Assembly (NCBI GenBank): GCA_905147135.1
Contig: LR990042.1
Location: 12,391,545-12,455,544, forward strand
Length of the DNA: 64,000 nucleotides
Source of the DNA: Blastobasis lacticolella
Lineage: Eukaryota; Arthropoda; Insecta; Lepidoptera; Blastobasidae
Direction: 5' to 3'
In this document: piece after piece, positions 3,251-55,600 of the stretch
How the letters are laid out: each line of letters begins with the position of its first letter
How positions within the stretch are numbered: the stretch's first letter is position 1
Notes under the pieces: model-generated
Databases searched by the model: none
What the model was told of the DNA's origin: nothing
What the model saw: only the letters and a program-made list of their open reading frames with translations
Position numbers and translations under genes: made by a program

Positions 3251-3318
3251 CGTTTCAGCTAGTGTTCGTCCTAGATTAGCAAAATACTTGTTGCATGTTG
3301 CGTCGGCGACGCAGGTTT

Positions 3319-14722: not shown

Positions 14723-14920
14723 CACCGCATTCGTGTTCAGGCACACAGGTCCCATTTTGGGCCCTTAAATAGTTTTCCTTGCAAATGCATCCTTCTTTAC
14801 AATATTTTATGTCGGTGATTTCTGGACATGGTATTGGTTGATATCTCTCAGTACAATCAAGGGCTCGGCATACGCCCTGAATGCATGGCACATATTCTTC
14901 GTTGACACCACATGGAACTT
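14723..14920 (-). CDS. Gene B exon 2: TIL domain
   Basis: 198 nt, 66 codons, acceptor gttgtag and donor G|gtaaga, phase 1-1. Ten cysteines with CGVNEEYVPC, GVC, LDC, IPC, KYC, EGCIC, TCVPEHEC. It differs from gene A exon 3 at only a handful of residues. Confidence 0.86.
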
Positions 14921-28554: not shown

Positions 28555-28673
28555 CTACTTATCACCGCAGTCGTCGTCGTCCGGCACACATTTGCCTTTG
28601 TTATCCTTCGAGTACCCTTTCTTGCAAACACATTTCTTCGAGAGTTTATTGTATTCTTCGTTCTGACCGCAAT
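28555..28673 (-). CDS. Gene C: terminal exon
   Basis: 119 nt, acceptor taacacag. CGQNEEYN, KCVC, KKGYSKD, KCVPDDDDC, GDK and TAG at 28557-28555. The acidic DDDD before the last Cys is unique to this exon. Confidence 0.88.
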
Positions 28674-31600
28674 CTGTGTTATGAGTAAAATTAGTCAGTT
28701 AAGTATTGTTTCTATATTTCTACTAGTATTTACAGACTTTTGATTGAATTCAACCAGAATATGAAAATCGCAGCAGACCGATCTACAGATTCCCACGGAT
28801 CTGAGGATCTTGAGCAGATTTAGATGTTGGCTTTATGTTTTACGCAGCGAAGGTGCGCAGAAATCAAAATGTACAGAAAGCGCGGGAACGCAGCGAGAGT
28901 GAGGGTAACAGTAGCAGTTAATTGAAGAAACCTTACAGTTAGGTTTTTCTTCGCCTCCGCCTGTAGCGCCTCCAGGCGACATCGCCACCACCAAGCTACG
29001 CGCGACTACGTCATAGACGCGTCAACGAATGAAGCACGGGTGCAATCCTCCTTCCGACAAAAATGACGGGCAGCGATATAATTATAACGGTTGTTTTAGG
29101 TTTCTTTGATTATCCGCCTCCGCCGCTTTCCCTCGCCACGTTTCTTATGTATCCGCGCCCGCGATAAAAAAGCTTAACTTTTTATAAGTAGCCTTTCGAG
29201 TAATAAGTTAGAAAACTGACTCTACATTGAATATAAATAAACTTTAATTATTTTAACTTACTGCAGGAGCTATCCGGTACACATAGGCCAGTTTTATCCG
29301 TGACGTATCCCTTTTTGCACACGCATTTTTTTTTCAATGTATCGTATTCTTCGTTTTTGCCGCAACCTGTGAAATAGGTAAAATAGACATTTGATTGTTA
29401 ATTAACCATTTAGCCGTGATTGGAATCCATAATTTATGATGAAAAACTGACCTATACCAAAATCATCAAATAAAATTTTCTGAAAACAACTTCGTCTTTA
29501 GTTTAACTTATTAGCTGTAAATCTATACAGGAATGAATGATTTTGTACTCTCAATTAATTGATTTTCTACTATTTGTCTTCGTTTTTTTAAGTTATTTTA
29601 TACTTACAAGGTATGCATTTGCCCTTGACGTCTTTTTCATAGCCCTTTACACAAACGCATTGTTTTTTAGATTTATCATATTCTTCGTTATCTCCGCAAC
29701 CTGTAATAAAAAGCACAACAAAATCTTTAATATAAAAAATGTTTACTTAATACATACAGATTGATATGCAAAAAATAAAAGTAAAAAAATAGTATTTGAT
29801 TATTTACTTACAAGGCACACAATCACCATCCTTGTCCTTTATGTAGCCTTTCTTGCAAACGCATTGCTTTGTATATTTATCATAGACTTCGTTATTGCCG
29901 CAACCTGTTACAGAAATATGTCATTGATCAGTATCAATTACATCAAAAAGAGTAATTAGTAATGCAAAATAGCCTGGTCATGTTCAATACTTTCAAGACC
30001 CAGGCGAATCTCTACACAGAAACCCATCTACCATCAGACCTAAACGTTGGACCTTATGTTGAGTCCATAGCCCAATTGCCTGCTACTTGGAACCCACGCC
30101 AATGTGGAGAAATACTTTACACAAAGACAACTTCTTAATCTACCAAGCACAAGTCCGGTCGTTATGCGAGGTCGCTTGTACTGTACTGTGGTTAACATGG
30201 CGACGGGACCGCTAAGCAGCAGATCAGCTTGACGCTCTTGATTCTATCGACAGACATGCTAAAAGGCTGATTGGCGATGACACGCTTGTCGACTCCCGTC
30301 TTCTAAGTCAAGGTCATCAACGTAAGGTCGTCGGCCTGTAGGTCTTTTATGGATTCAGTTCGGTGAGTGCTCTCAGGATATCTACGAACACATTCCATAC
30401 AGCTCCTTTTTCCATTAGATAACAAGGACAAAAAATTGCCACCCATACATAGTAGACATCCCACCATCTCGTAATCAGCGATTCGCATATACTTGTCTTA
30501 TACATGCAGCTAAGAAAAGGAGCTTTTTACTTGCGTCACTGTTCCCCGAAAACAATAACCTTGGGGTCCTCAAATCAAGAGTGAATAGGTATATTTTAAA
30601 CAACCATGCTACATATTCGACCTCTCCATCGTTTCCCATCAAGTTGAGGTCAAATGCAAGCCTGTTGCTGTAAAAAGAATTACTTACACAGCACGCATTT
30701 TCCTATACTGTCCTTTGCATAGCCTTTTTTGCAAACGCATTTCTTTTGAGATTTATCATATTCCTCGTTGTCGCCGCAACCTAAAAAATTATCATCATCA
30801 TTAAGAAAAATGAAAAAATTGGTGGTTTAACGAAATTATATAATAACATAACTCTTTAGTATTTCCGTAAAAGACTAAAATGGTAAAGATTATATAAATA
30901 ATTACAATAGTACCAAAACAAGGTAAATGTAAAAAGTTTGTTATAATATTATATTATTTTATTTACAATACCTAATATTTTATACGTTGATTACACTAGT
31001 TCAAAAGTTTATTTATTGCATTAGTCTGTCCTACTTAGATTGATTTCGGACTAGGAGACTAATAATAATTACGATAAAATATTATAGTACTTATTAATAA
31101 TATGTTGTTTACTAACACAGCACGCAGTCGCCATCGTTGTCCTTTACGTAGCCTTTCTTGCAAACACATTGCTTTTGCTTTTTATCATATACTTCGTTGT
31201 CACGGCAACCTATTGTATAAACAAAAACGATACATAAGAATAAGTTCGATAAGAATAACAAATCGATTACAAGTTCAGTATGTAAAATAAGACGTCAAGT
31301 GGTGCTGAAACACAAAGACAAAAGAGACATAATCAGAAAAACGTAAAGAGATGAAAGAGGAAAAATGATAAGGCATGTGTTCAGACTCGACAGGTTCTTA
31401 AGAGTAATATTAGAAAGCACGGTTGAGGGAAGAAGGAGAAGAGAAAGGCTAACTAGAGATACTTCAGGTATATACTTACCAAGGAAGTATGATTGATGTA
31501 AAGTATATTATAACCATTTAAATTTGGATTAATTACGAATATCATTCTTTTGCAATGAGAATCCTCCTTTTAGACTTTAAACGTAATGGTGTACCTAGTA

Positions 31601-34600
31601 GGTACTAAATTTAGCTAGGTACTACTTGTACTTGTACTAAAGAAATAAAATGATATATCATATACAAGAAAACAAAATGTTCATTACATAGTAACGACGC
31701 AGACGAAAAAGTAGACAAGACTGCGCTGAAAGTTAGAGAAAATTCAGCAAGAATTGCATAAAAATAGAAGTTGAAGCAGAAGCGCAGAACGTAGGTATAT
31801 ATTACGAGACAATAATATAGTCTAGCAATTCAGAAACAAAAACAATAATTTAAGCAAAAACCAGATGGAGAGTTTAATTTGTAATTAATACCTCATAACG
31901 TTTATTAACAGATTTGGTTGGATTATGATTCCAAATATATACAACATTTTATATCGACAATTTGTAGTTTCAATATACAAATTAATCGTAACATAAAATA
32001 AAAATTAAATATGATTACCTGAAGATAATATACGCGATAGGTGCGATGCAAACACGCCTCAAAAATACACGGGGTCATTCATTTAGCTAAGTTGTGGTCA
32101 TAGTACTCGTATGGAGGGACTTTTTTGGTGAATTGTTTTCGACAAACAAGTTTTATTGCATTTGTCTAGTTATGATAAGTTCGATATTTATTCAATATCA
32201 TCACAAATACATTTAGCAAGCAAATGCCCTAGCTGCCAAGCAGCCTTATATTAAATGAAGAATAATCTTCACATTTGAAACGACAAAACAACAAGCTTCC
32301 AAGAAAATCTACTTACACGGCACACAACAGTTATCCTTGTCCTTCACGTAGCCGACTATGCAAACGCATTGCTTCTGATTTTTGTCGTATACTTCGTTTT
32401 CTCCGCAGCCTTTAGAAAATATAATCATTAATTTATAATTAAATCTACGTCAATATTATGGCTAAGAATAAAATGAGAAATAAATTTCAATTTAAACTGA
32501 ACAACGCACATTTTGTAAGCATGCAAAAAATCAACTAACATCCTCCAATATTTTGTTATAGAAACAACAAAATACACATGTTGAAAGTTTACAAGAAAAT
32601 CTACTTACACGGCACACAACTGTTATCCTTGTCCTTTACGTAGCCGTCTATGCAAACGCATTGCTTCTGCTTTTTGTCGTATACTTCGTTTTCTCCGCAG
32701 CCTTTAGAAAATATAATAAATAAATAAATAAATATATTCGTGGACAAATTCACACAGCGCCATAATGATTAATTTATTAATAAATCTACGTCAATATTAT
32801 GGTTAGGAATTAAATTAAAAATATTTTTTAATTTAAATCGAACAACGCTCATTTTGTAAGCTTGCGAAAAATCAACTAACATCCTCCAATATTTTGTTAT
32901 AGAAACAACAAAATACACATGTTGAAAGTTTACAAGAAAATCTACTTACACGGCACACAACTGTTATCCTTGTCCTTTACGTAGCCGTCTATGCAAACGC
33001 ATTGCTTCTGCTTTTTGTCGTATACTTCGTTTTCTCCGCAGCCTTTAGAAAATATAATGATTAATTTATTAATAAATCTACGTCAATATTATGGTTAGGA
33101 ATAAAATTAGAAATATACTTCAATTTAAATTGAACAACACACATTTTGTAAGCTTGCGAAAAATCAACTAACATCCTCCAATATTTTGTTATAGAAACAA
33201 CAAAATACACATGTTGAAAGTTTACAAGAAAATCTACTTACACGGCACACAACTGTTATCCTTGTCCTTTACGTAGCCGTCTATGCAAACGCATTGCTTC
33301 TGCTTTTTGTCGTATACTTCGTTTTCTCCGCAGCCTTCAGAAAATATAATGATTAATTTATTAATAAATGTACGTCAATATTATGGTTAGGAATTAAATT
33401 AGAAATATAATTTAATTTCAATCGAACAACGCTCATTTCGTGAGCTTGCGAAAAATCAACTAACATACTACAGTATTTTGTTATAGAAACAACAAAATAC
33501 ACATGTTGAAAATTTACAAGAAAATCTACTTACACGGCACACAACTGTTATCCTTGTCCTTTACGTAGCCGTCTATGCAAACGCATTGCTTCTGCTTTTT
33601 GTCGTATACTTCGTTTTCTCCGCAGCCTTTAGAAAATATAATCATTAATTTATAATTAAATCTACGTCAATATTATGGTTAGGAATTAAATTAGAAATAT
33701 AATTTAATTTCAATCGAACAACGCTCATTTCGTGAGCTTGCGAAAAATCAACTAACATACTACAGTATTTTGTTATAGAAACAACAAAATACACATGTTG
33801 AAAATTTACAAGAAAATCTACTTACACGGCACACAACTGTTATCCTTGTCCTTTACGTAGCCGTCTATGCAAACGCATTGCTTCTGCTTTTTGTCGTATA
33901 CTTCGTTTTCTCCGCAGCCTTTAGAAAATAAAATGATTAATTTATAATTACATCATCGTCAATATTATGGCTAAGAATAAAATGAGAAATAAATTTCAAT
34001 TTAAACTGAACAACGCACATTTTGTAAGCATGCAAAAAATCAACTAACATCCTCCAATATTTTGTTATAGAAACAACAAAATACACATGTTGAAAGTTTA
34101 CAAGAAAATCTACTTACACGGCACACAACTGTTATCCTTGTCCTTTACGTAGCCAACTATGCAAACGCATTGCTTCTGCTTTTTGTCGTATACTTCGTTT
34201 TCTCCGCAGCCTTTAGAAAATATAATGATTAATTTATTAATAAATCTACGTCAATATTATGGTTAGGAATTAAATTAGAAATATTTTTTAATTTAAATCG
34301 AACAACGCTCATTTTGTAAGCTTGCGAAAAATCAACTAACATCCTCCAATATTTTGTTATAGAAACAACAAAATACACATGTTGAAAGTTTACAAGAAAA
34401 TCTACTTACACGGCACACAACTGTTATCCTTGTCCTTTACGTAGCCGTCTATGCAAACGCATTGCTTCTGCTTTTTGTCGTATACTTCGTTTTCTCCGCA
34501 GCCTTTAGAAAATATAATGATTAATTTATTAATAAATCTACGTCAATATTATGGTTAGGAATTAAATTAGAAATATAATTTAATTTCAATCGAACAACGC

Positions 34601-37600
34601 TCATTTCGTGAGCTTGCGAAAAATCAACTAACATACTACAGTATGTTGTTATAGAAACAACAAAATACACATGTTGAAAGTTTACAAGAAAATCCACTTA
34701 CACGGCACACAACTGTTATCCTTGTCCTTTACGTAGCCGTCTATGCAAACGCATTGCTTCTGCTTTTTGTCGTATACTTCGTTTTCTCCGCAGCCTTCAG
34801 AAAATATAATGATTAATTTATTAATAAATGTACGTCAATATTATGGTTAGAAATTAAATTAGAAATATTTTTTAATTTAAATCGAACAACGCTCATTTTG
34901 TGAGATTGCGAAAAATCAACTTATATACTACAATATTTTGTTATAGAAACAACAAAATACACATGTTGAAAGTTTACAAGAAAATCTACTTACACGGCAC
35001 ACAACTGTTATCCTTGTCCTTTACGTAGCCGTCTATGCAAACGCATTGCTTCTGCTTTTTGTCGTATACTTCGTTTTCTCCGCAGCCTTTAGAAAATATA
35101 ATGATTAATTTATTAATAAATCTACGTCAATATTATGGTTAGGAATTAAATTAGAAATATTTTTTAATTTAAATCGAACAACGCTCATTTTGTAAGCTTG
35201 CGAAAAATCAACTAACATCCTCCAATATTTTGTTATAGAAACAACATAATACACATGTTGAAAGTTTACAAGAAAATCTACTTACACGGCACACAACTGT
35301 TATCCTTGTCCTTTACGTAGCCGTCTATGCAAACGCATTGCTTCTGCTTTTTGTCGTATACTTCGTTTTCTCCGCAGCCTTTAGAAAATATAATGATTAA
35401 TTTATTAATAAATCTACGTCAATATTATGGTTAGGAATTAAATTAGAAATATAATTTAATTTCAATCGAACAACGCTCATTTCGTGAGCTTGCGAAAAAT
35501 CAACTAACATACTACAGTATTTTGTTATAGAAACAACAAAATACACATGTTGAAAGTTTACAAGAAAATCTACTTACACGGCACACAACTGTTATCCTTG
35601 TCCTTTACGTAGCCGTCTATGCAAACGCATTGCTTCTGCTTTTTGTCGTATACTTCGTTTTCTCCGCAGCCTTTAGAAAATATAATGATTAATTTATTAA
35701 TAAATCTACGTCAATATTATGGTTAGGAATTAAATTAAAAATATTTTTTAATTTAAATCGAACAACGCTCATTTTGTAAGCTTGCGAAAAATCAACTAAC
35801 ATCCTCCAATATTTTGTTATAGAAACAACAAAATACACATATTGAAAGTTTACAAGAAAATCTACTTACACGGCACACAACTGTTATCCTTGTCCTTTAC
35901 GTAGCCGTCTATGCAAACGCATTGCTTCTGCTTTTTGTCGTATACTTCGTTTTCTCCGCAGCCTTTAGAAAATATAATGATTAATTTATTAATAAATCTA
36001 CGTCAATATTATGGTTAGGAATTAAATTAGAAATATAATTTAATTTCAATCGAACAACGCTCATTTCGTGAGCTTGCGAAAAATCAACTAACATACTACA
36101 GTATTTTGTTATAGAAACAACAAAATACACATGTTGAAAATTTACAAGAAAATCTACTTACACGGCACACAACTGTTATCCTTGTCCTTTACGTAGCCGT
36201 CTATGCAAACGCATTGCTTCTGCTTTTTGTCGTATACTTCGTTTTCTCCGCAGCCTTTAGAAAATATAATCATTAATTTATAATTAAATCTACGTCAATA
36301 TTATGGTTAGGAATTAAATTAGAAATATACTTCAATTTAAATTGAACAACACATTTTGTAAGCTTGCAAAAAATCAACTTACATACTACAATATTTTGTT
36401 ATAGAAACAACAAAATACACATGTTGAAAGTTTACAAGAAAATCTACTTACACGGCACACAACTGTTATCCTTGTCCTTTACGTAGCCGTCTATGCAAAC
36501 GCATTGCTTCTGCTTTTTGTCGTATACTTCGTTTTCTCCGCAGCCTTTAGAAAATATAATGATTAATTTATTAATAAATCTACGTCAATATTATGGTTAG
36601 GAATTAAATAAAAAATATTTTTTAATTTAAATCGAACAACGCTCATTTTGTGAGATTGCGAAAAATCAACTTATATACTACAATATTTTGTTATAGACAC
36701 AACAAAATACACATGTTGAAAGTTTACAAGAAAATCTACTTACACGGCACACAACTGTTATCCTTGTCCTTTACGTAGCCGTCTATGCAAACGCATTGCT
36801 TCTGCTTTTTGTCGTATACTTCGTTTTCTCCGCAGCCTTTAGAAAATATAATGATTAATTTATTAATAAATCTACGTCAATATTATGGTTAGGAATTAAA
36901 TTAGAAATATACTTCAATTTAAATTGAACAACACACATTTTGTAAGCTTGCAAAAAATCAACTTACATACTACAATATTTTGTTATAGAAACAACAAAAT
37001 ACACATGTTGAAAGTTTACAAGAAAATCTACTTACACGGCACACAACTGTTATCCTTGGCCTTTACGTAGCCGTCTATGCAAACGCATTGCTTCTGCTTT
37101 TTGTCGTATACTTCGTTTTCTCCGCAGCCTTTAGAAAATATAATGATTAATTTATTAATAAATCTGCGTCAATATTATGGTTAGGAATTAAATTAGAGTT
37201 ATATTTCAATTTAAATCGAACAATGCACATTTTGTAAGAATGCGAAAAATCAACTTATATACTACAATATTTTGTTATAGAAACAACAAAATACACATGT
37301 TAAAAGTTTACAAGAAAATCTACTTACACGGCACACAACTGTTATCCTTGTCCTTTACGTAGCCGTCTATGCAAACGCATTGCTTCTGCTTCTTGTCGTA
37401 TACTTCGTTTTCTCCGCAGCCTTCAACAAAATTTTAGAAAACATTTTTGATTAAACATGCCAATGGCGAGAGCGCCCTCCGTACAAGCGAGCGATATCGC
37501 AATTCATTTGGGATCCTATGCCATTGGTTTTTTCTCATCTATAGATAGTAGATGGCCAATGGGGCAGTAAAATTCTTGAGTGGCGACCACGTCCCGGAAG

Positions 37601-40600
37601 ACGCGGCGTTGGTAGGCCTCCCACAAGGTAGACCGACGACTTGGTAAATATCGCAGGTACCAGTTGGATGCGGAAACACAAGACCGGCCTTTGTGGAGAT
37701 CTCATGGGCAGGCCTAGCAGTGGGCGTCTTTTGGTTGATATTATGATGATGACATGCCGATGATACGATCACCACGCGTTCCTTGCCCGCGTATGTACAT
37801 AATGAAAAGCACAGGTCAGTATTGTTGTAAAGAAAGAAAGAATAACATTTTGCCATCTGTACAGATGCATCGCTTCCACTGTGTGTCAAATAGTTTATTT
37901 TCTTCACAGCCTTCATCGAAATTTATAATGTTTTTTAAATTAAAGTAGATTGGTGAGCCTTGAAAACGGGGGCTCCTGATTAAACAATCAGGTTTTTCTC
38001 ATCTACGTACAGATCATACGATCACCACGCGTTCCGTGCTTCGGAGGAAATTTTAAGCCGTCGGCTATGGTTAGTATCGATTAATACTTATTTAATTTTC
38101 TGATGTACAGGAAAATGCGTATGTATACACCACTGGCTATACCGATTATGGATAGTGCCGTGAAGGTGAAGATGAAGGCTGAAAGGAAGAGACCAATAAC
38201 AACATTCATGATATTTTAATTGTTTCTCGGTTTCGTCTTAATTCTTCACTGCACAGAAATTGTGAAAATTTTCTGAATAGAGGAAGAAGAATGCAAAACT
38301 AAAGCCAGCTACAGACGCACCTGCCACTCATTTTTGGGTTAACGCGTTCGCTGACAGTCCGTCCACAGGCAATCTAAATGATGCGTTGTTACAGTACCTA
38401 CGTCGAAAGGCGGGGTACATTTTCTTACGAGTTTGGACATTACGTCAACCGATGATACATTTGTTTATATGTATTAGAAAAAGTAGTTTCTACTAACAAC
38501 CTGTAAGCACTCTCGTATTTGCTACTGTTGTATTACGAGTTTATAGGTAGTTTTATATACTGTTGACGTCTCTGGACGTAGTGCTGTATGAGATTGACAA
38601 TTAGAACAAATGTGATGTTGATATTGACTTTCCAGGGCATAGTGTCGTATTAAGACAATTAAATATATACATACTCCTATGTGTGTACGTCTTTCAACGG
38701 GTATCATTTAGTATGGAAAATTGTCCTGCCGCATTATGGGGACAGGGCAGGGACATGTATTTAATATCAGCGAACTTGTTGAGAAAAAAAGATATAAACC
38801 AACAATAAACATATTCTTACAATTACGTCAACTTACACGGCAAACAGACGCCATTCTTGTCCTTTACGTAGCCGTCTATGCAAACGCACTGTTTTTTGTC
38901 TTTGTTGTATTCTTCGTTTTCACCACAACCTGTCCATAAAAACAAAACATTTAAAATGTAGCAAAATTGATGTGGCCCTGTGAGGGAGATTGGTATATAG
39001 CTTTTGCCCGCGACTTTGACTGTGTGGAACTTAGTTTCTTATACAATATCTATTCCCGCAGTTCCCGCGTCTGCCTAAGTATACGACTATCAACGCTTTA
39101 TACTTTATTTCACGTCTTTTGAGCACGAATTTCTAAATTTGTTGGATCAACTTTACCTTTTTGCAATGTTCTTTTGCACACTTTCCATAAAATAATAAAG
39201 ATTAAAATACTGACATACAGACTTTTTTTACGGAGAAAGAATTTCCAGAAACAATTAATAATAGATTATACACTAAGGGGAGAAAGCAGTGAGTTTATTG
39301 AGTACTGAGCATAGCAAAGAACTCTAGAATTAACTCCCGAGCGTAGCGGGAGGTTTCAAAAATATATTTAAAAGTACTTTAAAAAACAAATGCCATCAAA
39401 AGTTTTTACAAAAAGTCGTAATACGGTAACGGAACTTAAACTAAAAAGCGTAAAATAAAAAAGATGCATAAAATCAAAAATCCCGACTGTTATTACAAAA
39501 CTGTTCGGACCTATTCGTAATTTCTATAAATATTAAGTATCCGTGTCCAAGTATATGAACTCCTAAACCAATATGGACTTTCTCACCTTAAAATTTTAAA
39601 TAAAGACTTAGAATTAGAATTTCCTTTTAAATTAAAAATTAATTAACATGTAATCATGTGCATATTAATCAACCGGGAAACGTAATAGTGGAAATAACAA
39701 AATGAAGTTTACTTACAAGGAATACATGCACCATATTTGTCCTTGACGTAGTCTTTCTTGCAAACGCACTGCTTCTTGTTTTTGTCATATTCTTCGTTTT
39801 CGCGACAATCTACGCAAAAAGATTAAAAGATTTTTTGATTAGGTGAATGTTTACAACATTATATTTAAGGTAAAATAAAAGAAGAATTTACGGTTGAATG
39901 GTATCCGGTAGAGAATACCGCTTACCCGTTCCACTCACGGCTTTTCTATAATGATAGGTATCTAATGGACAGATTATCTAAGAATTCCGATACAAGAAAA
40001 AGCAGTACCAGGGTCCATTGTACAGCAGCTCAACGTTTACTGTTGAGAAATTTGATAAAGTTTCGGAAATGGATGTTTAAAACTAAATGGTGTTGAATTT
40101 TCCAATTTCAGGGTACTCAAAGTTTTGATTTACACTTACTGTAAAACATATGCTATGTAACAAATAAGGTTGAGTAGATGTTTGTAACGAGAAATCTTTT
40201 GTAACGTTATATCTCAGAAACATTCCAAATAAGTACCATACATGAGCTATGAAAAAATTTACAAATATTACCTATAATTAATAGACCAGCAGTACTAAAA
40301 CATATAGCACACACTTCAAACCGCAACACAACAATGCAATTGTGCGTGGCTGAAGAAATAGATAAAACGGTGCTAGCCATCCAGCCAGATCCCTCAGGCT
40401 TGACAGAACCCTATCAATGGGAAACTAACCAATGAAGTGTTATTCCAAGTTTAAACTGCTTTTACGGAGAGAAAAATGAAACAAATTAAAATTAGAGAAA
40501 CAAAATCAATATTTATATTATAAGGAAATATTCGAAATAATATTATCAACTTTGATATTTTTCAACAGCGATAAAATAAAAACCAATAAATTGAAACTTA

Positions 40601-43600
40601 AGTGTATAGCTATGAACCTTTATCGATAAGAAATAATACAAATTGCAAGCGAATCAGACCAATGCTTTTTTTGATAAATCTGGAGTGCGAAAGAAAGCGG
40701 CTTTTAAGTAGTACAAATCAATCATCGCATTACCATTAATAGTGGCATTACCTGATGAAGATAGTTTTTAAATACTGGCATCAGCAATATTAAAAATTCA
40801 GAATCGCGTATTTACTCTTTGTGTCTATTTCTTTATGTTCCATTTGCAACATAACCAGCTGAAATTTACGAGGGCTCAGCTTTATTATGATGGATGATAT
40901 TTAGCCGAACTCAAACTCGAGTTGCATATAAAAAAAAAACCAAACCTTCGATGTGCTCTTATAAATTACTAACACTGTAAAATTGCACTATTTATGATAG
41001 TGTTACTTAATTTAGCAGGATGGGTACTTGAAAGTACCATGTACTATGTCATGCAACTTATTTACGGTCATAATCGTCTATCGGTACACAGTTGCCCTTC
41101 TTATCCCTCACGTAGCCTTTTATGCAAACGCATTATTTTTTCCATTTATTATATTCTTCGTTTGATCCACAGCTACAAGCTACAAATAAATAACAAAGGT
41201 CTGGATTAAAATACAGTTCGTAATAGGCTATATCTAACCCCAAAATATCTATATCGGATATGACTGTCTATAAACAAAGTCTGTAAACAAAGTCGCTTCC
41301 CGCCGTCTGTCCCTATGTATCTATGAACGCTTAGATTTTTTAAACGCCACACAACGGATTTAATGCGCTTTTCCACAATATGTAGATTGATTGAAGAGGA
41401 AGGTTTATAAGAAAAAAAGAAAAAAAGGGTAAGTAGGGGTAAAGTAGGTGTACGCGAACGTAGTCGCGCCGGGTCCACTGATATCAAGAACTCCCGCATG
41501 AGTTTCAAGAAACGGTTGATTGACATCGCTGCCGCCAAGTCGAATGCAAAACCCCAGGGCTTAGTAGGGCGTAGTAAGCTACGCGAGTGCCGAAGACCAG
41601 ACGAAGTGGAGAAGTAAGAAGAATTAACCTTTTTCCCCACAAACTTGCCGCCATAGTCAAAGTCGTAGAATATAAAGAAAAGCCCTCCTAACGACATATC
41701 TCTTAATGTTATGTCGTGGATCTTCCAGACATCCGCACGAGCCATTTTGGTTAAAAAAAATTGTTAACTTTTTACTTTTATACGATATATATTAAAAAAA
41801 TTACTATTAAAATATTTAAAATAAATGCCGGAAATGAATTCTACATCTTAATTTTATAAGAAAATGATACTAAACTTGCTCTAGTAGCCAATTGGGAACT
41901 TACAGTTTTTTTTTAATGGTAGGCGGAGGGGTCCTTTGTACTTCCCTCACCCCTGGCGGCAGCATTTTTTTTTCTTGGGGCCCGCGCTAATAATGTTTAG
42001 AACTACTTGAGGAATGAGTGTGGTGAAGCCCATAGCTCTATAAAAATGTAAGGTTCTAACCAGCAGTAACCCCACAACACGAAGCCGATTTTAGAATAAT
42101 GAATAACTGCATAGATTTTTTTATAACTGGCATACAAATTTATTTATAATTTAATTAATAATTTATTCTTGAGTAACACATGTTCCTATTGAATTTCTAT
42201 AATACCCTTTTCTACAGGTACAACTGGCTTGACAGGGAACATCTTCGGGTAAACAAATGTATGCTTTATGTAGGCTATCGCATGTTCGTGGTGGACAACT
42301 ATATGGACAAGAATCCTACCACTCATGGGGTCTGTTGTCGCAACGTTTGTCAGCTGTAGGACAACAATATTACTGAGTGTGTTACTGATATAGACAAAGA
42401 ATATTACAAAATTTAATATTATATTCTGATCATTAGGGAAAATATTTATATTAAAAAGGAAAATCTTAACCATTATTTTAATTTGTACTAATTTTATTCA
42501 AAATTATTGACTTTTGATTAGTTGCAATGTGATTCTGTTTGCGCTTCAGTTAGTATCAATATTTTGTTTTAGTCTAAATTTACATAAGTATTACGGGTAA
42601 CGTATATTTTTCTCCGTCAAGATAGATTTCATAAATATATATCTACCTATTTACAAATGTAAGCACCTACTTATAGTATAATAGCAGAAGGGTAGCTTAG
42701 TTCCTATAAACAAGCAGTGGGACATTAATGACCGACACATTTTTCGTCTCGGGACCCGATGAGCACCTGTGACACTAAGTTGTGTTATGTTATAAAAGGT
42801 GATTTTTAAATTCTTTGAAAGTGTGTGAAAATTTGACGTCCAGAGCGCATTTACGCGCCAAAATGGCATTTCATTATGTTTTCAATAAAGCTAATATAAA
42901 ATATATTTGTCTTTATAATGATTTCAATATTAAAACCAAAGGTTTTAAAACACCCTTAATTAGGTCTTTTACAGAAAAGCACGGAAACTTGACCCAATTT
43001 TACTGATGTATTTTTTTTTATTTTTCGGAAACAGCTAATCCGATTTCGATGTATTTTTTAGTATAATCAAATATAATTAAGCTAACTAGTAATATATAAT
43101 TTTCTGCTGTAACTTTTTGCCATTAATTTTTTGTTACCGGATGTCGGAACATCGGCTTTAGGAGAAAATCTGGATGTGCGACCTAAGTCGCAGAACAAAT
43201 GCTCTGTTCTCCGACTTCGGTGTGGTCGGTTGGTCTATGCACCAGGGTGCCTGCTCCTGAATGTCCGAGGAGAAACAATACGGGCTTAAACTGATCCCTG
43301 GTGTAGCCCTACCGGACATGTGTGCCCTACCGGACATGTGTGCTTGCTCTATCATGCATAGATCTTATAAAATTGCTTTTCTGGCATTCCCTTCACATTC
43401 AGAGCCCACCACTTCTGTGTTCTTACGTGGGAATAAATATCGGGGTTGGGCGCTAGTAGCTTAAAGAATATAGTGGACCCGGCGGGACTTCGTTCGCTTA
43501 CACCTACTTTACCCCTACCTACCCTCTTTTTATAAAACTTACTCTTAAATCACTCTAAAATTTGTTGAAAACCGCATTAAAATCCGTAACGTAGTTTAAA

Positions 43601-46600
43601 AGATCTAAGCGTACATATATACATAGGGAAAGACTCGGAAAGAGACTTTGTTTTATACAATATGCCATGGATCCAGAAAAAATCGTTAAGAATTTACTAA
43701 ATTATACTTATTTCAATTAAATTATACTTACATTCCAGTACGCAATTGCCTTTGCTGTCCCTTACATAGCCCTTTTTGCAAAAGCATAGATTTTTGATTG
43801 GGTTGTAAACTTCGTTTGGTCCGCAAACTGACAAAAAATAATATTTCAAATTAGCGCTTACAGTTCATCACTTAAAAAAAATTTTAAATTTAAAAAATAG
43901 GAACATTACTTAAAAGTAGGAACTTATTGTTATACTAGCTTTGGCCGTTTTAACGCGATACCATTTAAATGACGAATTATATGAATTCTAGTATTACAAG
44001 TAGGTCAAGCTGTATTTTTGGGTCTACTTACCCGAATTATGTGAAACATGGCTTAGTTTGTACCCTGAACTTCAACCAAACCAAACTATCAAAGCCGAAA
44101 CAAAATCCGTTCAGTAGTTTCTGCGTGATGCGCGAACTGACAGACAAACAACATTTTTTGGGCATAGTTACGTCCCAGAATCTTACCCCGACAATTTTTT
44201 TATGAAATATCTTCAATAGACAGGCACGTCTTTTTTACACTTTTATAATGAGGAGTTTTCCAGTAGGTATTGATAGTTTGTTTCAAAAAGCATCAATAGA
44301 TGGCGCTCCTACAATTTTGGTAATCTTCTTTAAATCTGTATGATGGTGGCAGTGATTTCATGCAGCCAAGTTATACTAAACTTGAAAATAAAGTGTTTAT
44401 TAATATAAACATAACTGTTAAAGGTTGAACGAAGTGTAAAAAGAAATATTAGAAGTTGGCACTATGTTCCATTATTATAACAACCTCTAAAATGGTTGAA
44501 AACCATTGACAAGTATAATATTATCTAATACAACGTATCCAGTGTTTATATCCTGTTTGCTAAGAACCTATTTCAAGCGATTATCAATTACCAAAATTGT
44601 CGGGGCGCCATCTAGTGAGTGGTTAGGAATGCCTTAAATACCTATTGGAAAACTCCTCATAGTATTATGCCAAAATCTTTGTGGTACCTATAGATATAAA
44701 ACCTCAAAAACTGTAAATATTACTCCAAGAAGGTACACTTACGATCAAATTCTGCCACGCAGTTGCCTTTGTGGTCTCTTACGTATCCCTTTTCGCAAAA
44801 ACTTAATTTTTTGATTGGGTCGTAAACTTCGTTTGGTCCACAACCTGCAAAAATAATAAGTTAGAGGATATAGAAAAACCTTTTATTTAAAAAAATTGTT
44901 TATGACCGTTTTTAGTCCTAGTCGGACGTATCCAATTTATGCGGACCTCGGGTCCTTGCATGCCGTGCAGAAACGCAACCGGGATTTAACGCCAAGATGA
45001 TGATGGGCGCATCCAATTTGAAAGGAATACCCTGGTATGACTCTCACAATTTTATTTTAAAGATTTACAAACCTTCACAAATCTAAATAAAGTATGTATA
45101 TCCTTACCATTACATTCAGGCACGCAGTTGCCTTTCTTATCTCTTACGTATCCTTCTTTGCAATAACATAATTTTTTGATTGGGTTATACACTTGTTTGG
45201 TCTACAGACTGTAAAAAAATGTTTTAGTTAGAGAATTGTATTAACAACTTTTTATTGTAAAGTTAGAACTTTTTTAAATTAAAGAATATATTAACAAATT
45301 TCATTTAAAAAAAGGTTGATTACGGTGTTTTGTAATAACGGTTAATCCGTTTTTATTTAAAAAATATCACACATAAAAAGAAAATATTATAATCCTTACG
45401 ATCACATTCTGGCACGCAGTTTCCTTTCTTATCTCTTACGTGGCCATGTTTACAGAAGCATAACTCTGTTTTCGGTTCGTATATTACATTTGGTCCACAA
45501 ACTAGAAAAATATGACATTGTTATATTCTTATAAGACAGAATGTTTTTATAATTTACTCATTTTAAAACGCACAATTTTTTAAAGGTAAGTTACACATTA
45601 GTTTTTAGGTAGCTATTAGCTAAAATATATCCAGATTGACTTGTCTCAATTGGTATATAAACATGGCATACTGGCGACCAAAGACAATGTGGTTTGGATA
45701 TGTCTGAAAAAAATTGAAAAAATACCTTTCCGAATGTATATATACCTATGGTTCTTAGATCTGTGGCAGTGAGTGACGGTAAAATTTATATTTTCAGTGT
45801 TAAATGGATAATTTGCAACAGTACCACTTGAAATAACCGTGGACAAACCGTGGACAAATTCACACACAGCGCCATCTAGCCCCAAAGTAAGCAAAGCTTG
45901 TGTTATGGGTGCTAGATAACTGATAAACTATTATATACATTTTTAAATACATTTTTAAATACATACTTATTACACATAGAACACCCAGACCCGTAACAGA
46001 AATTAAAATTCATCATTTCAATTTCTTCCCGGCCGGGAATCGAACTCTTGCGTGGCAAACCGGCTGTTGACCATTGAACCACTCAGGTCGTCAAATTCAC
46101 TTGCTTTGTGTTTCTTATATAGTTTAAGACATTTACACTCGCGAGCAAGCAAATCAATCAAATCGGTTTTCGTTGTTTAATTGCTAATAAGACTTTGTAA
46201 TTAAATAATTACTTGAATATGATCTTTACGCAAGACAATATGTTTTTAAAACAGCTGCACATCCGTCTATGAAAAAATATTGTCTAGCGTAAATCAATCG
46301 CGTCGAAGAATTAAATTGAAAGAAGAAGTAAACATTGTCTTATTGAGTATTAAACAGCGAAAACGGAAGTAAAATCGATAATACCTTATATATTATCGAT
46401 TTGCTTGGTCGCGAATGTTTATGTTAAAGACTGAGTGATTAATCTGTATTTATATTATTCATAATATATCTGTAATTATATTAATAATCACAAGTCAAAT
46501 CGGGTAATTAATTAATGCAGCTACTTAACAGTTGGGCAAACTGGTAATTAAAATACATTAAAAAATAAGCTGGTTGCAATCCGAATTGCTGGGTATGCTG

Positions 46601-49600
46601 TGCCAGTTATTAAAATTCTATTTAGAAAAGTTTTAGATTTGAATATCCATAAAAACTAACACACTCGTCGCTTCGCTCCTCGTAAACTAACCCTCTATGG
46701 TAAAATGTCATTTTTGATAAATTCGGTTTTTATTTTCATTTCATTAAGTCTCTGCCCAATAAGTGACAAGTCCATTATTAATAATGCCCGGTCGATTTAA
46801 TTATTTCAATAGTTTTTACGTTGTCTACTCGAGAGTGTGTCGTCTAGGGTAGCGTACCTTATACTCAGAATTACCAAGCGGTATTTGTTGAAGGTCATAC
46901 AGGTCTACGCACTGACTTCGACTCACTCCGACGATTAAGTGGAGGCTATGTATGAGGATATTACTACAGCCATACGTACCTCCAAGACACATTACACCGT
47001 TGTCATGGGGGATTTCAACGCGAAACTGGGCAAACGAAGTGGAGACGAGTTGAGAGTGGGGCATTTTGGAGTTGGAAGTCAGAACGCCTCTGGCCAGATG
47101 CTGGCCGGCTTTATGGAGAAGGAGGGACTTTTTATGATGAACTCATTTTTCAGGAAGCCGGATAATCGCAGATGGACGTGGGTTAGTCCCGATGGTGTCA
47201 CCAAAAATAAGATTGACTTTATCCTATCTACGAAACGGCATATATTCAATGAAGTCTCGGTGATCACAGCGTTAAAATTGGCAGTGATCACCGTTTGGTA
47301 AGAGGCACATTGAATATCAATCTAGAAAGCAGCACAGCTAGAAAGATCAAGATTAATGAAGTCCACGCTCCGGCCTATACCCATCCAAATCTAAATCCCC
47401 GAGAGCTTACAACTCGAATTGCAAAATCGCTTCGAGTGCCTAGGAGAGTGCGTCGACGTGAACGACTACAATTACAGGTTCGTGGAAACTGGTTGGGTCA
47501 ACATTTGATAAACCCTGCCGTACAAATAGGACTAACAACATCTCTGACGATACTCTCAAACTCATCAAAGAAAGACGCGGAATGACTCTGCAATCCCCTG
47601 ATGATGTCTCTCAATTTAGGCGACTTAATCGACAGATCTCCAAGTCTCGCGACATACGCCGTTTCAATACTACCAATATTGAGGCGGCGATCGAGCGGAA
47701 AAATGGCTTTAAAGTCTTTGCGAGAGAACTGTCGATTGAACAGAGCCAGTTGACGAGACTAAAAACGGATGACGGCAGAGTTGTTTCGACCAAGTCCGAG
47801 GTATTGAGGGAAGTCGAGAGGTTCTATGGAGAGTTGTACACGACAACACGGGCACCTGTTAGCAGTATGGCAAAAGACCCCAGAGCCAAGTTAACCATGT
47901 AGATATCCCGGACATCAGCCTGTTCGAGATCAGTATGGCTCTTAAACAGCTTAAGGACAACAAGGCGCCGGGTGATGATGGAGTTACGGCTGAGCTTCTG
48001 AAAGCTGGTGGCAAACCTGTGCTTAAGACCCTTTAGATTCTGTTCAATTCCGTCATCCTCGAGGAGTAAACGCCAGAAGCATGACACAGAAGCATAGTGA
48101 TAATGTTCTTCAAGAAAGGTGATAATTCTTTCATTTAATTTTTATAAATTATAAATAAAAATAAAATAAAAATTAATATCACGAAAATAGGAAAACAGAA
48201 TTTTATTTTTATTGGGAGTAGTAATAGCAGTTGAATACGTTCCGCTGGTTACATCAGCAGTTGTTGTGATTTCACAATGTTTTGTTCGGAGTTAACGAAT
48301 ACTGGAAAGTAAGGAAAGAATGTATGCGCAATTCGAAAAGGAAATGTGCATAGGTGGTTTTGTGGTCTTACTCATGCAAAGGCTGGAGCCGATTGGCACC
48401 TAGTGATTGGCATATTTCGTTGTCGTTACGGTATTGGTAAGCTTAAAGCTTCATGGTCAAGGCGGACCCCGGGCCCTCATACGCGAGAGCTTAACCGGGA
48501 CATTAACGCTAAAATAAATAATCATTTTTCTTTTAGTTAATTTCATCTATTATTAAACTATTTACAAATTTTTCATTTTACTTTAAGTACTTACTGTCAC
48601 ATTCTAGCACGGAGTTGCGTTTGCTATCCCTTACATAGCCGTTTTTACAATAGCACTATCACAAAAACACAACAGGTAAATATGTTTAGATTTTTCAAAA
48701 TACTACGTACCTATAGAAAAAAACTACGTACGAGATTTTTAAGGAAAGTTGTTGAAAGTTGGTCGTTGAATATTTTTTAGACTAAAAACTTCAAGCTGAT
48801 ATAATATAAGCATATACTTACAATCACATTCCAGTACGCAGTTGCCATTTTTGTCTCTTATGTAACCATTTTTACAGAAACATAATTTTGTTTTAGTATC
48901 ATATACTTTGTTATCTTTACATACTGCAGAAAAAAAAACAATTACATACAATTGCATCATTAAAAAAATAGTAAAAAACTGTATCAAGTATCAAGCTGAG
49001 GACGACATTACGCGTTACCATGATTATGGGTACCTAATCAATGATTAATATGCATTTAGCATTGTTTATTTAGGTCAGGAAATTATTACTTTTACACTTA
49101 CTATCACATTCTAGTACACAATTTAATTTACTGTCCCTTACATAGCCCTTTTTGCAAAAGCATAATTTTGATCGGATACACTTCATGCGGTCCACAAACT
49201 GTAAAAAAGAACAACTGAATTGATAGTTTGATTTGTTCTCAACATTTTGAAGTTTTCTTTTTACACTGCAGTTAAGCAATAAAAATAGGTCTAGCATATT
49301 TAACAGCTTAGCTTTTCTAAACAGTAGGTATAACAGTAGCTATTATTTTCGTTTATTTTCACTTAGACCCATTAACAAGATGTTTCTACTAGTGTCTTTC
49401 CACAATTAGGTTAACATTATAATTATTTAATGACATAGATATTAGTTTCACTAGGCAGTGGCAATCCTCAGCTTTACTTGTGAATTTATAATAAATGTAT
49501 TATTGTTAGACTTGGTTTACTTACTGTTACAATTTATATTCTGAATCACGTACAGGCTTTTCAATGAACTTACGTATATCTCGAATCTTTTAGTTCTCCA

Positions 49601-52600
49601 GATAAGGAAACATAGCCAGATTTACTTATAGTCTAAGAGCCCATGAGGGCCAGACCTTCCTATTGTCCGTAAGTATGAAAGTTTTTCCATGTGTGTCCCC
49701 AACACAGGTAAGAATGATCCCCACCCATGAAACCTGGATCGTGGTTCCTTTGGCAGGTAACAGGTAACAAAGGTGTATAAAATCTTATCTCCAATTTATT
49801 AAGTTAGCAAGCTCAATTTTTTTGTATTTTATTCGTAACAGCATTAATACTCACGATGCTCATTGCCAGACACATAGTATGGTTACAACCCTCCGCCGGA
49901 CACCCCTAAACTATAATTCTCTGTAATTATACTTACCTTATATTAGGAAAGCTGAATTTTATAAATGTTATTCAGAGAATTATTAAACTGAGTTTTCTCA
50001 GTAGCCAGACAGTTTTTTGGGTTCTATAATCCTGCCAGACGCATAAAAAGTGTCTCATATGCAACAACTGGTGCGAGTGAGACAGAGCGCTCAGTTCATT
50101 GCAATGTTATGCTAAACATATACAATCGTTTATTCCAAATTGTTTAGTGATTTTTTTTTATAATTCATCAAGAAATTTAATAAAATAAAATTATTACAGT
50201 CAGAATAATAAATTTTTTAATCTATAATCAGTAAAAATTTTCTAATATTCACATTTAATCAGTAAATTTTTTCTAATATTCACATTTTTAAACTCGTGAT
50301 ATCTCTCGAATGGAATGTCTGAATTGCATAATTCAAAAAGTTATATAAAGGTATTGAAGCAGTCGTGAATATGAAGTAATTTATTTTGATAAGGATTAAT
50401 AGCAAAGTACCAATAAATAGCGTTTTTTAGCGGCGGCATTTCAATTAAATTTTGAAAATAAAAGAACACATGCATACATGTGACATAACTATAATAGTTA
50501 GACATATACTGTCGTGACACTTTTTATAGATAATGATGTGTTCTGCAAAGTCGTAGTACATTATTTTGTTCTATCATCAATAGTTTTCGCAGCACACGCG
50601 ATGTAAGGAATTTTTTGAGTATTTTTTTACACATTGGGTTACATTATTGGAGTTTTATTAATGAACCGTAATTCTTTAGAAAATTACGCTCCCGCTCCGG
50701 CCATGTACCAGTGACTGTTTTTTGAGTTATGTACATTAGTTGAATACTAACCGATGCTCTTACGGTGAGGGAAAACATCGTGATGAAACCTGCACATTCA
50801 GGCGACTGGATGTGTAACCATGATCCAATCTGGTCAGTTTCCCTTGTTAGCAGGGTCATGGAGGTCAGACGGCAGTCGCTCCACTGTAATTACCTGACCT
50901 GCCAAATCCTGGATCATGGTCAAGGCGGACCCCGGGCCCTCGTGCGCGAGAGCACAACCGGGACATTAACGCCAAGATGGTCACCCGGGGATAGTGTAGC
51001 TTCCCAACGGTGAAAGAATTTTTGAAATAGGACCAGTAGTTTCGAAGCCTATTCAATAAAAACAAACAAACAAACAAACAAAAAATCAAACATTTCCTTT
51101 TTATAATATTAGTATAGACGACAGCTGATGCGCAGTAAAAGATCGCACCGAACCGAGCGCTCTGTCTCACTCGCACCAGTTGTTGTATATGAGCCCCACT
51201 CTCGCAACTACCTATTACACTTTTAATGCGTCTGGCAGGATTATAGAACCCAAAAAACTGTCTGGCTACTGAGAAAACTCAGTTTAATAATTCTCTGAAT
51301 AACATTTATAAAATTCAGCTTTCCTAATATAAGGTAAGTATAATTACAGAGAATTATAGTTTAGGGGTGTCCGGCGGAGGGTTGTAACCATACTATGTGT
51401 CTGGCAATGAGCATCGTGAGTATTAATGCTGTTACGAATAAAATACAAAAAAATTGAGCTTGCTAACTTAATAAATTGGAGATAAGATTTTATACACCTT
51501 TGTTACCTGTTACCTGCCAAAGGAACCACGATCCAGGTTTCATGGGTGGGGATCATTCTTACCTGTGTTGGGGACACACATGGAAAAACTTTCATACTTA
51601 CGGACAATAGGAAGGTCTGGCCCTCATGGGCTCTTGCTCTATTAGTACAGTAAATGTTTTTTACTTATTATATTGTATTAAAACTTACATTGGTACTTAC
51701 TAGTAGTAGATAGATTGTGGCTTATACTAACACTCAGCATTGTTTTCAACATTATTACCTAGTTGATAATACCAGGCCTATGTCCTGGCTAAACCCATTC
51801 TGAAATTGTACGTTCCCAAGGTTTCGAAATCATGGTACTCTAGAAGAGTAAAACTACAACCTTTGAACGAATAGATCGATGAAAATCAACAACGATAACA
51901 TGAGCGACTTTGAAAAGTGTAAATGATCGTGTAAGTAAGTAAAAACTCTTTGTTGCATATATATTGCAAGACAGTATACAAGAATCAGCATAATATGCAT
52001 GTGGTTTATGCGATTTTGATGCGATACTTTAAGCGGTCTCTTCCAGATAACCTTTGGGAAGAGATAATCATATAAAAAAGCTAGTAGGTAGTGCAAGAGT
52101 AAATGTAGCGAAAAATAACAATTAACAAATAAGCTTTAATGCTTCTAAATAAATGTATAATACTATACATAAATACGATACATTACACATAATTCTACAA
52201 TACTATACTATCAAAATTACATTACAGTGTTGTGTGTATGTAACTTATTTTACTGGACATGAATTCCCAAATTTAGGTAGGTATCTACTGGGGTAAGTCA
52301 TTACATACAGGTACATTCCCCAAACTAAGAAATCACCAAGATGTTAAGTTTCCACTAATCGCACTAAAAGTACATAAGTATTCGTTATAGGCAAAATCCG
52401 TAATAGACGAAAATAACGTAAACACGGTAAGTAACATTCAAAACCAAACTCGGTGATACTTATTGTCGTGTCCTGTGTAAGAAGCATTATCATTCCTTTT
52501 AACTCATTAACTTACTATTGCAGTCCTGTTCGGGCACGCAGTTGCCCTTCTTGTCCTTTACGTAACCCTTCTTGCAGACGCAGCATTTCTTTGTCTTGTC

Positions 52601-55600
52601 ATACTCTTCGTTTGATTTACATCTTGGGGCTGTATAGAGAAATTGTAAATAAAAGTAAAAAGGTGTTAACTAATCGTTTAATTAAGTACAGAACCCCTAT
52701 ACTCGTGGAACGAGGAAAAAAAGTCTTCCATAGAAGCGTCCAAGTGATGCTTTGTAAACTGAAAGATTCTAGCGAGTCCAAAAGTCTTTACTCTTTCAAT
52801 AAACCTACAGTTCCCCACTGTTTTGGTATCCAACGTGAATCAATACAACTTACGTATCCAAGTGCCATTATACCTTTTGTTAACTAAATCATAAAGTTCA
52901 ATCCTTACGGCCTACGACCTCGGCAAAGGATTGTCACAGATATAGATGAATCAAATCTCAGCTCAGTTTACGAGAATTATCTCATAAATTTACATACGGA
53001 TACACGTCTACTTTTACCGAAAAAATATGTTTGTATAATTTGCATTTGATGGAAAAACTGTAGCGCCTCGAGCATCGGCGTAGTGTTGCGCGTCTGTCGG
53101 CCTTCTACAGTTTGCATTTCGAATAGTGTGCGAAGCAGTTGCACGACCATATTCCGCCGTCTCCTCTCCGCCATTGGGAAATGTGATCCTGGCGAGCGCG
53201 TCATCCTAATATTGTGGATCTTTCACCTATCCGCACGAGCCGCTTTAGTTCAACCTTTATAATGTGTACGGATGAGGAATGGAACGCGTTGCCTGCGAGT
53301 GTCTTCCCATAATAAACTAGACGCCTTTAAAGCTAGAGTGATTAGGCCGCACTTACCACCAGGTAAGACGGCGATCAAATGCCTGGCTAGTCTAATTTTT
53401 ATTAATAATTAAAAAATACGAGTACTACTTACGGCAATTCTTTATAGGTACACATTTATTCGTGATGATGTCATCCAAAATGTAACCTTTTTTGCAGTTG
53501 CACGCGTTATCGTAACAAATAGCGGCGCATGATTTGGGCGGGTCACCGATCTCGGAGCATGTTGGCCTGCAGCTGCCGCAGCCAGATATTGCGTTGTCGT
53601 CGCCCCCGCATGACGCTTAATCGAAAATGTGTAAGGTTATTAATTAATGTTATTAGAAACAAAAATATAGGGCACAAATGATACACACGACAGTTAATAT
53701 AAATTAATGTATATGCAGCAGAAACCGATTCAAATTTAAAACAAGAAGTTAATAATCTGTCTTGAATTTCCGTTTATTCTGAAGCAAGTAAACAAGACGT
53801 TGATTGGATTGTATAGCACAAAATAACTTATTTTACGTTTTATGTGATTCATCATTGTCTAACTAATGAAAATTTATCAAAAGTGCATCTAAATTTTTGA
53901 ATACTTACGACAATTCTCTTTGCATATGCAGATGTTCCTGCTGTCCCTCACGTACCCGTCCTCGCAAATGCACGCAGGTTTAGATGGGCACTTCTCACTG
54001 GTACAGACTGGTGGTAACGGGAAACCTAAATCGCAGCATTTCTTTGGCCCTGGTACCTTTTCTGGGCACTCAGCGTATACTTCGTGAGTCTTGCATCTCG
54101 GTGGCAATACTGAAAGAAAATCACGTTAACGTTGACAAGTATTTCTAAACAATATACCTAACTTATTTATTCATATTAGTTCTTTATGGTCATAATTCGA
54201 AGAGAAATAATCTAGGAGATGCGTCAGGATCGTATCTATAATAAGACTAAGTTAAGTCCGAATCGTTTATTAAAAAATATAAAATAAAAATCTATGTAGG
54301 TATGGCAAATTTTAGAACGTCATTCATAAAAGTCATAACAAACAATTTTATTTCTGTAATCTGGTTTATTTTCGTGAGTTATGAAGAATATTATTAAATA
54401 ATTGGCAAAACAATTAAAAAGGAATTGCGGGAGATAATTTTCAGCGTGATTAATAATTTAGACAAACTTAAAGCGACGACCTGAGCGGTTTAGTGGTCAA
54501 CATGCCACTCAGCCACGCAAGAGGTCCCGGGTTCGATTCCCGGCCGGGCAGAAATTTAAAATGATAATTTTTTATTTCTGTAACGGGCCTGGGTGTTCTA
54601 TGTATAATACATATGTATTTAAAAAAGAACATAAGTAGTATACCAGTTAGCTAGCACGCATAGCACAAGCTTTGCTTAGATTGGGGCTAGATGGCGCTGT
54701 GTGAATTTGTCCACGATTATTTATTTATAAAGTACATGTTCAAGCTAATAGCGACCAAATAACTGAATGTTTACAAGAAGGACTGACAAGGACAGATTAT
54801 CCCAAGATTATAGCCATATCCCCACTTTATAATTTGTACTACTGTCAATCAATACGGACTTATCGTGGTCCTATTATAGTAATTGGCAAACAATATTTCA
54901 CCTGAGGTGTAGGTGTGTTTCTGGTGAATTAAATTATAGAAACATTTTTTACATTGATTGTTGTAACAGTTGCCATAAGAGAATTAATTAATTGGGGGTC
55001 GACACAACTCGCTTTCGTTTGTTTAACACTCGTTACCCCACAAGTGACCTCTGAGTAATGCCAAACGAATAATTCTCTCCCGGTGAATCTTCTTTTTGCC
55101 ATAAATAAATAAATAATCGTGGACAAATTCACACAGCGCCATCTAGCCCCAAAGTAAGCAAAGCTTGTGTTATGAGTGCTAGATAACTGATAAACTACTT
55201 ATATACTTTTGAAACATAGAACACCCAGACTCGTAACAGAATTAAAATTCATCATTTCAATTTCTGCCCGGCCGGGAATCGAACCCGGGACCTCTTGGGT
55301 GGCAGACCGGCTGACAGATGTTGACCACTGAACCACTCAGGTCGTCAACCATAGATGGTTACCAGCTGTGACTGCCTGTTAAAGTCGTACTAGTGTATGC
55401 GTCTGAGTACGTCAATCAGGCGAATCTTTACGTCCTTCCTTCAATTGCCATCAGATCAAAGACTCCATACGCTCACATCAGTAATGATGGCAGTGATATG
55501 TCTGGCAGTGGCAGATAATCAAATTATTTATATAAAAAAAAATTAAATCAACCAACATAAAAACTAAATATGTACAATAAAAAGAAAAGAAAAAGAAAAA

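Follow-up and report, generated by a model that had tools for sequence, protein, structure and literature searches.

A tandem array of 18 short exons was analysed in a 64,000-nt stretch of the genome of the moth Blastobasis lacticolella (the window; bases 12391545-12455544 of contig 3 in the 577-Mb genome), where it occupies positions 32317..37420 on the minus strand. The array is best explained as the repetitive central part of a predicted zonadhesin-like gene that is present in two neighbouring copies. The array exons were most likely multiplied by unequal crossing-over, and the copy in the window (copy A) is probably decaying; as a whole, this account is held with reasonable rather than high confidence. 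The gene product is probably a cysteine-rich silk-coat protein of the moth, as judged by homology.

The units of the array can be read from the sequence as predicted exons of 93 nt, with AAG before and GTAAGT after each one (18/18), so that the intact acceptors and donors described in the initial annotation were recovered throughout (AG/GT in all 18). The exons start on the minus strand, which the initial annotation did not name, at 37420, 37128, 36836, 36544, 36254, 35962, 35670, 35378, 35086, 34794, 34502, 34210, 33918, 33626, 33334, 33042, 32701, and 32409. The interval between them was 292 bp in 15 of 17 cases, once 290 bp and once 341 bp, which agrees with the spacing claimed for almost every interval, and Tandem Repeats Finder reported a 292-bp period with 16.0 copies and 95% matches at 32762-37423. 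Each exon begins 2 bases ahead of a codon boundary and ends 1 base into the next codon; the codon divided at each junction (T, then GC) encodes Cys, which confirmed that all exons are of phase 1-1, and every exon therefore adds 31 residues with the frame kept. Comparison of the units revealed 14 of the 18 to be identical, as they had appeared to be; the 18 comprise 5 different sequences that encode 4 different peptides, and the repeats are indeed cysteine-rich (5 or 6 Cys per 31-residue unit). The periodicity and the exon signals are not due to chance. Exons of 93 nt are short, yet they are not microexons in the usual sense of the term. The single 341-bp interval (33042-32701) is longer by about 49 bases, which include a run of AATA type. 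The AAG acceptor was seen in 18/18 exons of the window copy and in 47/50 exons of the corresponding array of the paralogue, compared to 2/27 single exons and 0/34 exons of a second array; such acceptors may be weaker sites, which could permit variable exon inclusion.

A three-unit consensus matched at least 109 places in the genome, at least 108 of them within approximately 160 kb of contig 3 and at least one on contig 20. The 244 kb around the window was read, and a paralogue (copy B) could be located in the same orientation as copy A, from window-relative position 191279 down to 139220 (contig 3 12530764-12582823). The two copies are separated by a gap of 81 kb, and their 3' ends lie 110.7 kb apart. 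Collinear DNA blocks between them align at roughly 82-97%, and copy B was therefore taken as a tandem duplicate and not as a second haplotype. Near-identical units are hard to assemble, and a collapsed or inflated repeat would imitate such an array; nevertheless, an assembly artefact is extremely improbable, as the units can be told apart by their introns, which show a mean difference of 6.6% and variants peculiar to individual units, the contig is 23 Mb long with no N in the 244 kb, and the paralogue has the same architecture.

Copy B consisted of 112 predicted exons, none of which was broken, with an open frame of 3,751 residues and 17.6% Cys. All 110 internal exons have AG before and GT after them and a length divisible by 3, with a GT at the first donor and an AG at the last acceptor of the gene model. 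The protein begins with MSAFLLLMVLVPGFFATTSA and ends with DDDDCGDK-stop; a simple hydrophobicity count indicated a hydrophobic N-terminal start in both copies. Two arrays were found in copy B, namely array 1 with 50 exons of 93 nt and array 2 with 34 exons of 102 nt, the latter with intervals alternating between about 185 and about 187 bp, and thus mostly a two-exon unit of approximately 372 bp. Copy A is without array 2, one full TIL (trypsin-inhibitor-like) exon and some of the single exons of copy B.

The array of the window lies inside the predicted zonadhesin-like gene of copy A, which runs on the minus strand from a start at 57950 to a stop at 28557 and consists of 38 exons, 34 open and 4 broken relative to copy B (two frameshifts and two stops). 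All of the following exons are on the minus strand. The predicted first coding exon (57887..57950) encodes a signal-peptide-like hydrophobic start, MSALLLLMILVPGFFATTSA, and has a phase 1 donor; the same exon is present in the paralogue with 2 of 64 nt different. It is followed by two TIL-type exons, at 53909..54109 (Pfam TIL above cut-off for the joined segment) and at 53433..53615 (the best TIL stretch, profile 5-55 of 55). The next exons mostly encode single copies of the shorter repeat, termed mini-TIL below: e3 (52516..52629), e5 (48822..48923), eX (45400..45501; open, altered at the conserved NE and GY positions), eZ (44743..44844; open, with two cysteines of the paralogue replaced), eW (43732..43827), e10 (39717..39809), and e11 (38837..38929), which adjoins the array. 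The four broken exons are all situated between the signal-peptide exon and the array: e4 (49102..49198), with 97 nt compared to 102 in the paralogue and a frameshift; eY (45108..45208), with 101 nt compared to 102 and a frameshift; a full TIL exon (42159..42353) with an in-frame stop and a lost donor GT; and the mini-TIL exon e9 (41066..41179) with an in-frame stop. Downstream of the array, mini-TIL exons were found at 31117..31209, 30688..30780, 29812..29904, 29608..29700 (identical in the paralogue), and 29262..29366, followed by the terminal exon (28557..28673), which ends in DDDDCGDK-stop and is also identical in the paralogue.

Because four of the 38 exons are broken, copy A is probably decaying, and its loss of function is what we infer from the sequence. 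The initial annotation expected a product with 18 consecutive repeats, which does not follow, since the four broken exons are upstream in the same gene and such a product would arise only if they were skipped. The product of a working copy A of this kind would be a shorter secreted protein of 1,139 aa, whose 18 repeats would include 17 with five cysteines. The 34 open exons, when joined, read through as one frame of 1,139 residues without a stop and with 15.4% Cys, so that skipping would rescue the frame, and the counterparts of the damaged exons in the paralogue have lengths that are multiples of 3 and are of phase 1-1. The array and all 6 downstream exons are open as well. All four breaks would have to be skipped, however, and clean skipping is made less likely by the retention of both splice sites in three of these exons. 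Between the copies, the 10 open exons before the array differ with a pS (silent sites) of 0.061 and a pN (amino-acid sites) of 0.028, a ratio of 0.45, and conserved positions have been changed and cysteines lost; in the 6 open exons after the array, pS was 0.059-0.078 and pN 0.015, a ratio of 0.19-0.25, where the range depends on the partner chosen for one exon (30780) whose partner is ambiguous. Constraint thus looks relaxed in the front half of copy A but not in its rear half. Finally, 17/18 array units of copy A have 5 Cys, as opposed to 6 in 50/50 units of the matching array of the paralogue. A working copy A is rather unlikely, although more probable than the other alternatives weighed here, and a probably decaying copy is preferred.

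Exons were less variable than introns in both arrays. In array 1 of copy B, the variation at silent exon sites (0.080) was close to that of the introns (0.094), and it was much lower at amino-acid sites (0.018), which indicates that the protein sequence of the repeats was maintained during the growth of the array. In the array of copy A, the values were very low at both silent (0.008) and amino-acid sites (0.005), compared to 0.067 in introns. This constraint, together with the open frame, upholds the claim that the units are coding exons. A conversion process focused on the exons of copy A was considered but is not claimed; the pS of 0.008 in these exons is far below the intron value of 0.067, but it comes from 15 silent sites.

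A midpoint-rooted tree of 64 of the 68 units placed all 16 tested units of copy A in one clade, and 26 of 48 units of copy B in another. At the ends of the arrays, the last units of the two copies differ at 1 of 93 nt and the first units at 7 of 93. Separate growth of the array within either copy, with retention of an old unit at the end, is the pattern that unequal crossing-over predicts; the expansion within the gene by that process, proposed in the initial annotation, is consistent with the near-identity of the last unit between the paralogues and with interior units that are specific to each, and conversion may have added to it. The depth within the array of copy A was not smaller than most of the noncoding divergence between the copies. 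A search for multi-unit duplication blocks in copy A showed that the intron difference barely depends on lag (1-9), with no clear block size.

The 57 nt past each array-1 exon (about 94-150 nt from the exon start) were less variable than the remaining intron, with Fisher p values of 0.04 and 0.005 in the two arrays. If gene conversion, instead of unequal crossing-over, homogenised the units, exons and 57 nt of adjoining intron that are more uniform than the remaining intron in both arrays could be accommodated; conversion alone does not explain the difference in copy number between the paralogues (18 vs 50), and this alternative was judged unlikely. An inverted repeat in the introns, TATTTTGTT...AACAAAATA, was perfect in 15/17 introns of the window and in 36/48 introns of the paralogue. 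Its departures, when listed, had one side broken with no clean compensation, and for that reason no structured element is claimed; an Rfam scan of the window produced no structured RNA at the gathering score.

By our own alignment, the 31-residue repeat is likely a mini-TIL, that is, a trypsin-inhibitor-like domain without the middle segment. A 30-residue structure model of the repeat fitted the TIL inhibitor AMCI (1ccv) over its entire length in VIA-align, on which the TIL fit rests and in which rows within 1 Z were treated as tied. The full length of the repeat thus superposes on the core of TIL protease inhibitors, while the match passes over approximately 20 residues of the inhibitor. Profile PF01826 (TIL) scored 49.9 and 81.3 bits on longer pieces of the gene, compared to a gathering cut-off of 24.5. 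EGF domains fitted the repeat model about equally well in VIA-align, and this tie slightly lowered our confidence both in the account of the array as a whole and in the more novel proposal given below. Foldseek with the repeat model returned no match at E <= 0.001. When single units were compared with Pfam TIL, the array-1 unit scored 18.3 bits, below the cut-off of 24.5, and the array-2 unit had no match. The TIL domain has been described with ten cysteines in five disulfides (PMC4567993); a repeat alone does not show this pattern, as it has 5 (17/18 window units) or 6 (50/50 array-1 units of copy B).

As an alternative, the repeats could stem from an independent module of the EGF type that the gene took up, and not from a cut-down TIL domain; in favour of this are the structural tie, the low scores of single units, and a Pfam search with a four-unit query, in which EGF_Tme5 scored above TIL. 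On the other hand, the single mini-TIL and full TIL exons of the gene share a CGPNEVYD start and a CxCxxGYxxDxxGxCV end and are all of phase 1-1, TIL ranks first on the longer gene pieces, and TIL and EGF models overlap anyway in the zonadhesin-like family (PMC9745057). We consider an EGF origin rather unlikely, and retain the mini-TIL reading. Rad4, RANK_CRD_2 and other matches to Pfam families outside EGF and TIL, obtained with the same four-unit query, were rejected as by-products of four identical units.

Since the middle segment of TIL is missing, the repeat is predicted to be structural and not inhibitory. TIL is an inhibitor family, the gene holds full TIL exons, and some relatives contain serpin domains or carry the name serine protease inhibitor, all of which would suit a multi-head inhibitor with the mini-TIL repeats as its inhibitory units. 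That role is nevertheless very unlikely for a repeat with 5 or 6 Cys, no middle segment and a structural match in which about 20 inhibitor residues are passed over; furthermore, identical repeats offer no variety of reactive sites. The single mini-TIL exons of copy B (n=23, the 4 full TIL exons left out) encode 5 Cys in 15 cases, 6 in 5 and 4 in 3, while its arrays have 6 Cys in 50/50 array-1 units and in 33/34 array-2 units, the remaining one having 7. The extra cysteine occurs at three places: array 1 has it as NCC, and the two unit types of array 2 have it as LCCC or TCLC. It is missing from 17/18 array units of copy A (NSC). Amplified units may have been favoured when all of their cysteines could pair, a reading that is suggestive only, because each array descends from few units.

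Three protein searches yielded 139 different proteins, with searched lengths of approximately 325-3,224 residues, below the 3,751 of copy B. For models with both TIL and mini-TIL exons, the closest relatives were zonadhesin-like proteins of Lepidoptera and Trichoptera; the best matches were lepidopteran, many of them named zonadhesin-like, mostly with approximately 25-33% identity. This was not the case for mini-TIL units alone, for which the search scored only candidates sharing most words and gave 15 protein matches, with a protein of the fungus Anaeromyces among the top two. A strict mini-TIL pattern occurred 28 times in copy A and 26 times in a shortened copy B, and at least once in 13 of the 139 relatives, including those from Anaeromyces, Closterium and Chilo. 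The longest run of matches spaced 25-45 residues comprised 27 in copy A, compared to no more than 6 in any of the 139 relatives. With a looser pattern, 3-13 matches were seen in several lepidopteran relatives; in five of these that were inspected (up to 8 looser matches each), the longest run was 1 and the matches were the ends of longer TIL domains. A comparable array was thus found in none of the 139 relatives, proteins above about 3,200 aa being beyond the reach of the search. Gene prediction may fail on such loci or break them up, which could explain why no array-bearing relative was found.

Vertebrate zonadhesin has MAM and von Willebrand D domains. No match to these could be detected in the first 446 residues and the last exons of the copy A model; the domain scan of the paralogue covered two TIL exons and one array-2 unit. 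Silk coats contain zonadhesin-like proteins, which are rich in cysteine, have TIL and EGF domains and could play adhesive or antimicrobial roles; their Cys content is 12.7-15.2% in Yponomeuta (PMC9684489). The Cys content found here, 15.4% for the open exons of copy A and 17.6% for copy B, compares with about 12-15% expected of a zonadhesin-like protein. Zonadhesin-like genes form clusters (PMC9745057), two such genes of the caddisfly Limnephilus, zon3C and zon13B, are broken duplicates (PMC11092239), and in Plodia the middle silk gland expresses Zonadhesin1 (PMC12661448). The array gene shares with silk-coat proteins of this type (Pseudoips prasinana zonadhesin-like 1, Yponomeuta cagnagella ZNL3, Ephestia kuehniella zonadhesin 1) the signal-peptide-like start, TIL exons, cysteine as a leading residue, clustered genes, and broken duplicates, and differs from them in its long mini-TIL run. 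Full TIL exons matching other zonadhesin-like proteins were also observed on the minus strand at 4784-8125 and 14721-14912 of the window and at window-relative positions -18274 to -38. Together with the paralogue, these neighbouring exons indicate that the array gene belongs to a zonadhesin-like cluster.

Under the proposed mechanism, the array exons would have been multiplied by unequal crossing-over within the gene. As almost every internal exon is of phase 1-1, the gain, loss or skipping of a unit keeps the frame, which would let the array grow and shrink. Copy B would encode a predicted secreted protein of 3,751 residues and 17.6% Cys with 50 + 34 arrayed repeats, whose length would be set by the number of repeats and which, by homology to zonadhesin-like silk-coat proteins, would be released from the middle silk gland and act as an adhesive or a coat component rich in disulfides. 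A more speculative proposal is that a TIL inhibitor cut to a loop-less, two-disulfide core became a new structural repeat, that phase 1-1 exons carried it to 84 arrayed copies in one gene, and that the sixth cysteine, at three places in the intact paralogue, would let the array form, in the silk glue, a cystine chain that is self-paired or cross-linking and of a length differing between individuals; this can be put forward only tentatively.

Arrays of equal, same-phase exons and near-identical cysteine-rich modules are already known. Leucine-rich repeat genes of Tetrahymena contain arrays of 90-bp exons attributed to unequal crossing-over (PMC6564038), and resemble the present gene in having tandem exons of the same length and phase within one gene; they differ in being leucine-rich, of phase 2 and spread over thousands of genes in a ciliate, whereas the arrays described here are cysteine-rich, of phase 1 and in two genes of a moth. 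In progranulins, too, exon duplication has produced identical copies of a secreted module rich in cysteine (11/13 identical in Aplysia; PMC4527844), but the granulin module has 12 cysteines, comes from split exons and is present in a smaller copy number than the repeat of the array. A comparable exon array in Lepidoptera was not described in the portions of the literature searched, which is not proof of absence. Within that literature, a zonadhesin-like gene with a probable loop-less TIL unit in 84 arrayed exons and a probably decaying copy next to it appears to be new.

In the remainder of the window, long open reading frames resembling the reverse transcriptase of retrotransposons without long terminal repeats, with the motif judged by eye, were seen on the minus strand at 61460-63999 and 2097-3316. 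Elsewhere in the assembly, mitochondrial COX1 was located on contig 45, and COX1-like fragments were observed on 10 nuclear contigs (8, 10, 6, 19, 2, 24, 29, 15, 22, and 12), 8 of the 10 with internal TGA as in the mitochondrial code; these are probably mitochondrial insertions.

The two copies also serve as a warning for annotators, as gene predictors may break up or miss such genes. In them, the evolution of protein length in steps of whole exons can be read directly: same-phase exons, an older end unit and homogenised interiors can be recognised, and of the two duplicates one is large and open and the other is breaking. Should the silk role be true, the number of copies of one exon would directly tune a glue protein of the moth.

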